Below are positions 18,746-63,697 of a stretch of DNA of 64,000 nucleotides, piece by piece. A program made the position numbers and the translations under genes. Each line of letters starts with the position of its first letter. The first letter of the stretch is position 1. The notes under the pieces are model-generated. The model did not search any database and was not told where the DNA came from. It saw only the letters and a program-made list of their open reading frames with translations. This DNA comes from Oscillospiraceae bacterium (GTDB lineage: Bacteria; Bacillota; Clostridia; Oscillospirales; CAG-272), in assembly GCA_015063325.1 (NCBI GenBank), contig SVUK01000017.1, positions 310,001 through 374,000 of the forward strand, in the 5' to 3' direction.

Positions 18746-18772
18746 GTATCTATCGGTAACAAAACCGATACC

Positions 18773-18980
18773 AAGATAGAGGTTGCAATTTCAAAAAGTA
18801 ACGCGGAAAAACGTCCGAAGAGGCGCGCGCGAAAGGTGAAATTGCCGAAATTCGATTTTCGTCTTCGCGGACTTCGGGTTGGGACATGTCGAAACACGCC
18901 ATGGACTGTCACAAGAAATTGTGGAGCGCTATCGAAATACATCCCTTTTGTATTTTGCGCCTCCAATGGAGGCGTTTTTT
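18773..18980 (+). promoter_or_regulatory. Lysine riboswitch (L-box) with downstream intrinsic terminator
   Basis: AGATAGAGGTTGCAATTTCAAAAAGTAAC ... GCGCTATC closing segment (GATAG/CTATC pairing), internal GGTTGGGACATGTCGAAA; terminator CGCCTCC-AAT-GGAGGCG-TTTTTT at 18958-18980. Confidence 0.88.
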
Positions 18981-61957: not shown

Positions 61958-62031
<74 letters not shown>

Positions 62032-62087: not shown

Positions 62088-62164
62088 GTGCCTTTAGCTC
62101 AGTAGGATAGAGCAACTGCCTTCTAAGCAGTAGGTCGAGGGTTCGAATCCCCCAAGGCACGCCA
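62088..62164 (+). tRNA. tRNA-Arg (TCT)
   Basis: Acceptor GTGCCTT/AAGGCAC, anticodon loop CTTCTAA, T-loop TTCGAAT, CCA encoded. Confidence 0.97.
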
Positions 62165-62187: not shown

Positions 62188-62263
62188 GGAGGGATTAGCA
62201 CAGTTGGTTAGCGCGTCAGGTTGTGGCCCTGAAGGTCGTGGGTTCGAGTCCCATATCTCTCCC
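62188..62263 (+). tRNA. tRNA-His (GTG)
   Basis: Acceptor GGAGGGA/TCTCTCC, anticodon loop TTGTGGC, T-loop TTCGAGT, C discriminator; full CCA not encoded. Confidence 0.94.
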
Positions 62264-62266
62264 CAG

Positions 62267-62296
62267 AAAAAACCGTTCCTCTCGGAACGGTTTTTT
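62267..62296 (+). terminator. Terminator after the tRNA cluster
   Basis: AAAACCGTTCC-TCTC-GGAACGGTTTTTT. Confidence 0.85.
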
Positions 62297-62298
62297 CA

Positions 62299-62474
62299 GT
62301 TATATTCGCCTTCGGCGAGTGATATTGGGCTTCACCCAGTGATATTCGCTATGCGAGTGATATTGCGCTCCGCGCAGTTTGGAAGGCGAATATAATATCA
62401 CTTTGCGGCACCGCCGCAAAATATCACTGTGCCGTAAGGCACAATATCACTGTTGTTATTAGTGGCATACCACT
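62299..62474. repeat. Hairpin array with GTGATATT / AATATCAC connectors (inverted two-arm architecture)
   Basis: GTGATATT at 62319-62326, 62339-62346, 62357-62364 (degenerate GTTATATT 62299-62306); AATATCAC at 62394-62401, 62420-62427, 62443-62450; a different short hairpin between successive copies; 13-bp inverted repeat TTATATTCGCCTT (62300-62312) / AAGGCGAATATAA (62383-62395). Confidence 0.9.
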
Positions 62475-62502
62475 TGAAAAGCCCCAGCTTGTATGCTATA
62501 AT
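62474..62502 (+). promoter_or_regulatory. Near-consensus promoter for the four-helix-bundle gene
   Basis: TTGAAA (62474-62479), 17-nt spacer, TATAAT (62497-62502), with TG extended -10 (TGCTATAAT). Confidence 0.85.
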
Positions 62503-62520
62503 TGATTCGAGGTGATGACA

Positions 62521-62877
62521 ATGGCAGACAGCGTTCTTCGCGAGAAATCTAAAGATTTTGCGAAACAAATCGTTCTCCTTTGCAGAAATATGAAGCAGGA
62601 ACACCGCGAATCAGTGCTAACAAATCAATTACTCAGAAGCGGTACTTCGATAGGTGCGAATATTCACGAGGCACAGTACGCACAAGGTACAAAAGATTTT
62701 ATTTCAAAGTTTGAAATATCGCTGAAAGAGGTATATGAAACCGAGTACTGGCTTGAATTACTGTTTGAAACCGGATATATAGACGAACAGACATACAAAC
62801 CGATACAGAACGATTGCGGCGCGATCAGACGTATGCTTATTTCATCCATAAAAACCATGAAAGAAAAGAGCGAATAA
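62521..62877 (+). CDS. Four-helix-bundle protein (S23/23S rRNA intervening-sequence protein, bAvd-like)
   Basis: REKSKDFAKQIVLLCRNMKQEHRESVLTNQLLRSGTSIGANIHEAQYAQGTKDFISKFEISLKEVYETEYWLELLFETGYI matches the TIGR02436-type family; GAGGTG before ATG 62521. Confidence 0.93.
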   Translation: MADSVLREKSKDFAKQIVLLCRNMKQEHRESVLTNQLLRSGTSIGANIHEAQYAQGTKDFISKFEISLKEVYETEYWLELLFETGYIDEQTYKPIQNDCGAIRRMLISSIKTMKEKSE

Positions 62878-62961
62878 AACAGGTTTACATCAAAAACATG
62901 AAACGCTGGTAATTTTTTAGAGTTCTAATGCAGAAAAAAGAGAGGATGCAAGCAAGAAAGC

Positions 62962-63423
62962 ATGAAAATCCACATCATCGGCGGTCCGGGAAGCGGAAAA
63001 ACCTACCTTGCCAATCAGCTTGCAAAAGAACTTGCCATTCCCCACTACGATCTGGACGACCTCCAATGGGATAACCAAGCAAACGATTACGGAACCAAAC
63101 GGGATTCCAAAGAACGCGACGAACTGCTCCGGCAAATTCTCACGCAAAGCGATTGGATCATCGAAGGCGTTTATTACGCATGGTGTGGACAATGCTTTGA
63201 AGAAGCAGATCGGATTTATCTTTTGCAAGTTCCGCGCCGCAAATACCGGTACCGCATCATTCGCCGCTTTATCAGAAGAAAGCTCGGACTGGAAAAAGGA
63301 AAAAAGGAAACCTTCAAATCTTTATCCGATCTCTTAAAATGGGCAGACAAATTTCAAGCCAAAAATTTGCCCGAAATTCAAAAACTCCTCGAAAAGTACC
63401 GCGAAAAAGTCGTTTTTCAATGA
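62962..63423 (+). CDS. P-loop kinase-like protein (FlaR/'DNA topology modulation' or adenylate-kinase-like family)
   Basis: MKIHIIGGPGSGKTYLANQLAKELAIPHYDLDDLQWD; WIIEGVYYAW; RRKYRYRIIRRFIRRKLG. Confidence 0.85.
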   Translation: MKIHIIGGPGSGKTYLANQLAKELAIPHYDLDDLQWDNQANDYGTKRDSKERDELLRQILTQSDWIIEGVYYAWCGQCFEEADRIYLLQVPRRKYRYRIIRRFIRRKLGLEKGKKETFKSLSDLLKWADKFQAKNLPEIQKLLEKYREKVVFQ

Positions 63424-63424
63424 G

Positions 63425-63465
63425 AAAACCCGCGCCGATCGAAGAATGCGATCGGCGCGGGTTTT
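63425..63465. terminator. Bidirectional terminator
   Basis: AAAACCCGCGCCGATCG-AAGAATG-CGATCGGCGCGGGTTTT, 17-bp perfect arms. Confidence 0.9.
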
Positions 63466-63478
63466 CCGTTGCTTATTA

Positions 63479-63697
63479 TCAATGGTCGTTCCAACCCTCC
63501 TGCCATTCGGCTTCGTTGTCGCCGTCGGCTAACGGATCGTCCGGCTGATTGTTTTGCTGACCAGGAGTTTCCGGCATTTGACTTTCTGGCGTTTGATTCC
63601 CCGGTTCGCTCGCCGGTTCCGGATTGCATGCCACCAACAGAACGACGGCAAACGACAGAACAAACAAAATCAACATAACCAAAAACGACCGTTTCAT
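63479..63697 (-). CDS. Small acidic Pro/Gln-rich lipoprotein
   Basis: MKRSFLVMLILFVLSFAVVLLVAC lipobox followed by NPEPASEPGNQTPESQMPETPGQQNNQPDDPLADGDNEAEWQEGWNDH. Confidence 0.7.
   Translation of the reverse strand: MKRSFLVMLILFVLSFAVVLLVACNPEPASEPGNQTPESQMPETPGQQNNQPDDPLADGDNEAEWQEGWNDH

Follow-up and report, generated by a model that had tools for sequence, protein, structure and literature searches.

A hairpin array and its four-helix-bundle gene as a probable copy of a mobile gene cassette at tRNA and tmRNA 3' ends

Why should an array of short connectors and small hairpins stand immediately upstream of a four-helix-bundle (4HB) gene in a gut Oscillospiraceae genome, and do the two belong together? 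An earlier note on this DNA had proposed that array and protein form one unit, with a mobile element or an autoregulatory leader among the options. Here we analysed the whole stretch of 64,000 nucleotides (the window) and compared the locus with its relatives. From these sequence comparisons we consider it probable (roughly 70%) that the locus represents one member of a family of small, mobile gene cassettes, precisely inserted at the 3' ends of tRNA and tmRNA genes. The family is apparently widespread in uncultured gut bacteria and undescribed, and we judge the system to be categorically new, though made of two known orphan families. The open literature searched, which excludes most subscription papers and all bioRxiv preprints, gave no description of such cassettes, and '23S rRNA IVP' was named solely in a figure legend on CRISPR-linked proteins in a CRISPR-discovery paper (PMC10910872).

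The array and its neighbours in the window

The connector GTGATATT occurs on the forward strand at 62319, 62339 and 62357, with a degenerate copy, GTTATATT, at 62299, and its reverse complement follows at 62394, 62420 and 62443; all of these copies, and every hairpin listed in the earlier note, were located. Nine connector copies were observed across the whole 64-kb window against 1.36 expected, a number reached by 0 of 100 shuffles. The locus comprises the following features:

61958-62031, tRNA-Gly gene, upstream of tRNA-His (ARAGORN)
62088-62164, tRNA-Arg gene, upstream of tRNA-His (ARAGORN)
62189-62265, + strand, tRNA-His gene (gtg) with encoded CCA, the putative docking site (ARAGORN)
62266-62297, + strand, terminator-like left-end hairpin GAAAAAACCGTTCC-TCTC-GGAACGGTTTTTTC, directly 3' of the CCA (terminator scan)
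62297-62368, + strand, match to Gut-1 (RF01706), 62.3 bits, GTGATATT connectors alternating with hairpins
62300-62395, + strand, left domain, with the long-range helix TTATATTCGCC/GGCGAATATAA as its closing stem (covarying helix 1)
62394-62450, + strand, right array half, three copies of the reverse-complement connector AATATCAC, hairpins TTTGCGGC-ACC-GCCGCAAA and TGTGCC-GTAA-GGCACA
62474-62502, + strand, promoter TTGAAA-17-TATAAT of the 4HB gene, 3' of the array, 11 of 12 consensus positions, extended -10 TG
62521-62877, + strand, 4HB gene of 118 aa, ATG at 62521 to stop at 62877 (PF05635/TIGR02436)
62962-63423, + strand, candidate cargo, a 153-aa P-loop NTPase 84 nt past the 4HB stop (weak AAA_17/AAA_18, near the cut-off)
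63424-63466, + strand, terminator behind the candidate cargo, 18-pair stem

The array spans 62297-62450 and its right half is the inverted left half; its left end (TTATATTCGCC, 62300-62310) is complementary to its centre (GGCGAATATAA, 62385-62395). Folded as RNA, positions 62266-62455 reached -90 kcal/mol (z = -10.3 versus shuffles). Whereas the earlier note knew of no named description, the array is partly named already, and is not wholly unnamed because its left half matches Rfam Gut-1 above the gathering score of 50; the right half gives a sub-threshold Gut-1 match on the minus strand (62452-62385, 33 bits). Gut-1 was listed as a likely noncoding RNA by Weinberg et al. (2010), and as published it is restricted to the human gut, has no assigned function and comes without a partner gene (PMC2864571). 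A sub-threshold match to BTnc231, a Bacteroides sRNA in Rfam, was also seen on the minus strand (62266-62435, 29 bits versus a gathering score of 80) and may be due to chance or to a related element. Besides the Gut-1 identity, the first reading had missed the tRNA-His gene and terminator hairpin before the array, and the complementarity of its left end and centre.

The promoter and 4HB gene are present as reported. The protein matches PF05635 (5.6e-29, 100.9 bits, cut-off 33.8) and TIGR02436 (3.7e-33, 114 bits, cut-off 24), falls in the GTGATAT-linked clade of the 4HB tree, has solved relatives (2RLD and 2GSC) and is of the Avd/S23 type (PMC10053308). An autoregulatory leader of the 4HB mRNA is disfavoured because the promoter lies downstream of the array. 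As had been remarked, rRNA and reverse transcriptase are missing from the surroundings: the Rfam scan found no rRNA in the window, and a search of the host genome did not detect a reverse transcriptase.

The window copy may be a decayed or partial cassette, because no ATGA-coupled cargo stands behind its 4HB gene and the right-end profile described below gave no match near 62877-63480. Membership of the P-loop NTPase gene in the cassette is uncertain; a distantly similar protein (30% identity) is encoded behind the 4HB gene of a tRNA-His locus in another genus (L066), and the terminator behind it might be the displaced tRNA-His terminator. Elsewhere in the window, a lysine riboswitch lies at 18769-18939 (93.9 bits), and positions 1-222 are the end of the tmRNA gene that the preceding locus follows. 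That locus, the second 4HB gene of the host genome (L013, C17:309.4 kb, just left of the window), comes after the tmRNA and a terminator, then short inverted repeats (TTTTTCACTTTTCACTATTC), with no hairpin array upstream.

Recurrence of the pair and covariation of the stems

An inverted connector array, called at a score of at least 5 within 450 bp upstream, accompanied 57 of 91 4HB genes of the bacterial family against 0 of 455 shuffles, and only 2 of 91 carried one downstream. These 91 loci were taken by Pfam score (the best 30 and the next 60, plus the second 4HB gene of the host genome). A second, independent set of 79 loci was drawn from GTDB genomes, for the most part metagenome-assembled genomes of ruminant-gut Clostridia, and here the array was found with 49 of 79 4HB genes and in 0 of 237 shuffles. 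The proposal of a single unit is thereby strengthened; about one-third of the sampled 4HB genes have no detectable array. Because similarity to the window or to the family guided the sampling, the rates are valid for this clade, and nearly all data come from metagenome-assembled genomes.

Of 148 family genomes, 102 contain Gut-1, compared with 52 of 288 from the class. Among the 148 genomes, a 4HB gene was present in 77 and absent from 25 of those with Gut-1, and present in 12 and absent from 34 of those without it (odds ratio 8.7, p = 2e-8, kinship between genomes being ignored). Seen from the Gut-1 side the link is weak, with a 4HB gene within 830 nt in 1 of the best 30 Gut-1 loci. The host genome (1.68 Mb, 24 contigs, 95.6% complete) has two PF05635 genes and five array loci, which by reading sit behind tRNA genes with terminators, and one of the five, the window copy, has a 4HB gene. 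A 16-mer, GCGTCATTATGGAGCT, is found in the same genome at C7:42, C9:9116, C13:12500 and C21:44, two of which are contig ends, as would be seen with a repeated element.

The connectors fall into several types (GTGATAT, GTGAAAT, GTGAAGT, GTGATGT, AATGATG, ATGAAGC, GCTAAAT, TGAATTG, ATTATTC and others), and in the loci scanned, the subfamilies other than GTGATAT (GCTAAAT, AATGATG, ATGAAGC, TGAATTG and more) gave no Rfam match besides tRNAs. Mapped on the 4HB tree, connector types required 21 changes against 59.9 with shuffled labels, a value as low in 0 of 200 trials, on a tree of a short protein in which near-copies add to the clustering. Array-linked 4HB proteins group together, apart from basal array-less ones, and between elements of the same subfamily homology covers the 4HB gene and stops near its stop codon. 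Array-less 4HB relatives (Nostoc, Bernardetia, Treponema and Monoglobus) have short tandem repeats beside the gene, and inverted copies of these lie across it. At L267, L268, L270 and L262 (Monoglobus, Treponema, Bernardetia and a viral contig), the 4HB gene stands between 7-8-mers in tandem and the reverse complements of these (e.g., TAGTGAT ... ATCACTA and AATTCGT ... ACGAATT). A record labelled 'Bacteriophage sp.' from human faeces (MT835815.1, L269), which may be bacterial DNA, contains a GTGATATT array together with a tRNA-Arg, and its 4HB gene shares 76% identity with the window gene.

Constant connectors with stems that vary and still pair had suggested selection on structure, and the comparison of arrays indicates that the structure is indeed under selection. 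In 13 arrays of one connector type, 12 of 30 consensus pairs have changed on both sides with pairing preserved, including the long-range closing helix (helix 1 of the left domain), in which four pairs show double changes. Double-changed cells numbered 42 against 13.1 in shuffles, and pairing fell from 96.4% to 36-58% when partners were slid, both with a structure derived from that same alignment; G-U pairs are conserved in the covarying stems. When 106 arrays from all subfamilies were pooled, 183 of their 322 distinct hairpin segments formed stems of 4 bp or longer, compared with 11% of shuffled segments and 18% of re-paired halves, and the left end is complementary to the centre over at least 8 nt in 73 of the 106, against 3 of 87 controls.

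Docking sites, right ends and cargo

We collected 70 distinct 4HB loci linked to tRNA or tmRNA genes, which cover 16 tRNA isotypes and tmRNA, and in 64 of them the stem of the left hairpin begins 0-1 nt past the CCA. This spacing alone does not assign the hairpin to the element, because native terminators of the clade also start near the CCA. One left hairpin recurs behind Leu, Tyr, Ala and Val tRNA genes in different genomes, and that of the window is identical to the one behind tRNA-Arg in another genus (L042); because the same hairpin recurs at different tRNAs and in different genomes, it probably travels with the element. Insertion behind the native terminator is disfavoured by these identical hairpins and by one case (tRNA-Leu) in which the hairpin past the right end resembles a congener's native terminator.

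Mobility, one of the options raised at the outset, is supported by empty sites in congeners. Within the own genus, the tRNA-His locus (Gly-Arg-His) is empty in seven congeners (L090, L092, L095-L099) and filled in L088, L091, L093 and L094 by four different elements; other array subfamilies occupy it in three congeners. At tRNA-Leu, three congeneric species have empty sites made of CCA, terminator and a UvrD-type helicase gene, whereas in a fourth (L160/L271) approximately 1 kb, made up of hairpin, array, 4HB gene, cargo and right-end site, separates the CCA from the terminator; the flanks are 76-79% identical, so the CCA and the terminator serve as landmarks for the base-precise junctions. 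Two further observations were made. Tandem partial tRNA 3' ends with terminators of their own, and with an altered T-loop (GGTTCAGAATCC in place of GGTTCGAATCC), stand behind tRNA genes in L092, L096, L097 and L066, and look like another repeat family or pseudo-tRNAs. A second class of element with array, 4HB gene and cargo (L164 in G082, L165 in G007) splits an intrinsic terminator at its loop (AGAAAACCCCTCCG / element / CGGAGGGGTTTTCT), has TIR-like ends (TTCTCATAAGGAAGT ... ACTTCCTTATGAGAA) and is found in near-identical copies across genera.

Past the 4HB stop, differing ORFs begin, often overlapping it as ATGA; such start-stop-coupled cargo is missing at about half of the array-linked 4HB genes. 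About six of the 54 cargo proteins are GNATs; the rest comprise nucleotidyltransferases, one histidine phosphatase, one methyltransferase, DUFs and others without assignment, and no integrase was among the 25 of 53 Pfam families listed for them. Similar cargo follows different array types (L146/L241, L149/L253 and L110/L234), and the cargo of L119, which has a 4HB gene, is nearly identical to that of a host-genome array without one (C21). Behind the cargo stands a right-end site of approximately 55 bp, with two imperfect repeats and CA at its end. An earlier regular expression for this site was too loose (23 loci versus 2.3 shuffled, many of them false by eye), and a profile was used instead; with nhmmer it found 29 distinct sites, 28 of them at E < 1e-3 and the 17 seed sites counted among them, and none in reversed sequence. 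Nearly all 29 end in CA or similar and are directly followed by an A-tract hairpin. Three cassettes stand in tandem in L174, and two in C21 of the host genome. Each of the C21 pair ends in a right-end site whose repeats are exact and spaced by 31 nt; in that genome such exact repeats are restricted to C21.

By sequence comparison, then, a typical cassette consists of a terminator hairpin, an array of Gut-1 or sister type, a sigma-70-type promoter, the 4HB gene, often a cargo ORF that begins within the 4HB stop, and the right-end site. The extent first given to the unit was correct for array and 4HB gene and left out terminator hairpin, cargo and right-end site, and most arrays are without a 4HB gene; taken as a whole, the early reading found support on unit, covariation and mobility, and none on namelessness and on the leader.

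The cassette model, its rivals and known systems

We propose that cassettes insert between the CCA and the terminator of the tRNA or tmRNA gene. In the loci compared, the hairpin of the cassette then stands next to the tRNA and the native terminator behind the cargo, and cassettes can stack, each new unit beginning at the CA of the preceding right end. The array would be a structured recognition site for its cognate 4HB protein, which is probably oligomeric and may mark cassettes or deliver them to CA/hairpin junctions; strand exchange would be left to a separate recombinase, probably of the host or acting in trans, and arrays without a 4HB gene could be served in trans. We infer binding of the array by the 4HB protein because the protein co-varies with the connector, is related to Avd (PMC10053308) and has the solved relatives named above. 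Far more speculatively, the 4HB protein, with or without the array transcript, would be the specificity factor, possibly a catalytic one, that joins cassettes to CA/hairpin junctions, and S23/4HB genes elsewhere (the rRNA IVS and the 7-mer-flanked Nostoc, Bernardetia and Treponema copies) would belong to the same mobile lineage, an extension that we regard as doubtful.

Several other explanations could account for parts of these data. Avd proteins work with RNA in diversity-generating retroelements (DGRs), so a related 4HB protein might be the RNA-binding partner of a structured noncoding RNA read from the tRNA promoter or from one of its own, the position behind tRNA genes then following from transcription or 3' processing. 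Covarying stems, conserved G-U pairs and the published listing of Gut-1 (PMC2864571) agree with such an RNA, which we hold to be possible and not probable: a terminator separates tRNA and array, the 4HB promoter lies 3' of the array, and right-end sites, tandem cassettes and exchanged cargo would be left unexplained. The promoter often found directly 3' of the array would also suit an array that acts as a regulatory insulator or promoter module and separates tRNA operons from the gene that follows, a very improbable reading given the presence or absence of the element at one locus in congeners, the different subfamilies at the same tRNA and the shuffling of cargo.

That the array is a dispersed MITE- or REP-like repeat inserting at terminators, with 4HB and cargo genes as bystanders, would fit the number of Gut-1 matches in a genome (29 or more at the upper end), the many arrays without a 4HB gene, the existence of arrays without tRNAs and the second class inside terminator loops with TIR-like ends. 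We nevertheless find it unlikely, since arrays recur at 4HB genes far above chance in both samples, connector types cluster on the 4HB tree and co-vary with the protein, and homology between elements spans the 4HB gene to near its end; Y1/HUH transposase (PF01797), present in 6 of 10 genomes searched, was undetected in the host (G000) and in three other array-rich genomes (G113, G014 and G082), which also speaks against a RAYT in trans. Template-switching reverse transcriptases join molecules at mature tRNA 3' ends, which is where the junction lies, and a retroelement could be imagined in which the 4HB protein, being of Avd/S23 type (PMC10053308), acts like a DGR Avd with the reverse transcriptase in trans, element RNA being joined to tRNA CCA ends and copied. 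The chances of this are slight, because PF00078 was undetected in the host genome, and it was likewise undetected in 6 of 9 other array-rich genomes; direct repeats at the right end would not be expected either. A defence system was also considered and set aside, PADLOC matches to cargo being single and scattered.

The cassette model thus remains our preferred reading. To our knowledge, PF05635/S23 proteins occur in thousands of genomes with no function assigned. If true, the model would give a common explanation for them and for Gut-1 RNA, an orphan since 2010, and a first proposed role for both, the former known as "23S rRNA intervening sequence protein". It would also add to integrons a second mobile gene cassette architecture, common in uncultured gut Clostridia and spreading acetyltransferases, nucleotidyltransferases and many uncharacterised genes, and would make the old question of S23/IVS movement directly testable.

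Each known system resembles the cassettes in part. The Gut-1 model, with three hairpins and a GTGAAAT-like connector, fits the left half of GTGATAT and GTGAAAT arrays, but it spans just that half and one group of subfamilies. The 23S rRNA IVS of Coxiella shares the protein family, the insertion at a stable RNA gene and tandem 7-mer repeats beside the S23 ORF that recall the 7-8 nt connectors (PMC4990558); however, the IVS interrupts the 23S rRNA, from which RNase III removes it, whereas the cassettes follow the CCA of tRNA or tmRNA and have hairpin arrays, promoter, cargo and right-end site, and the Rfam scan found no rRNA gene around the window element. DGRs have an Avd-type four-helix-bundle protein, but the cassettes have no RT, TR or VR. 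Islands integrated by tyrosine integrases also dock at the 3' end of tRNA genes; unlike them, the cassettes show no integrase, use many isotypes, measure approximately 0.6-1.5 kb and seem to share only CA at the junction. Integron cassettes likewise are small, bring one cargo gene each from a diverse range (GNATs, nucleotidyltransferases, phosphatases and others), have a structured site with variable stems and stack in tandem at a fixed docking site, but in the present family no integrase gene was seen in the cassettes examined, each has its own promoter, docking is at the tRNA CCA end, and the right end consists of two direct repeats plus CA, by eye unlike attC (RYYYAAC ... GTTRRRY).
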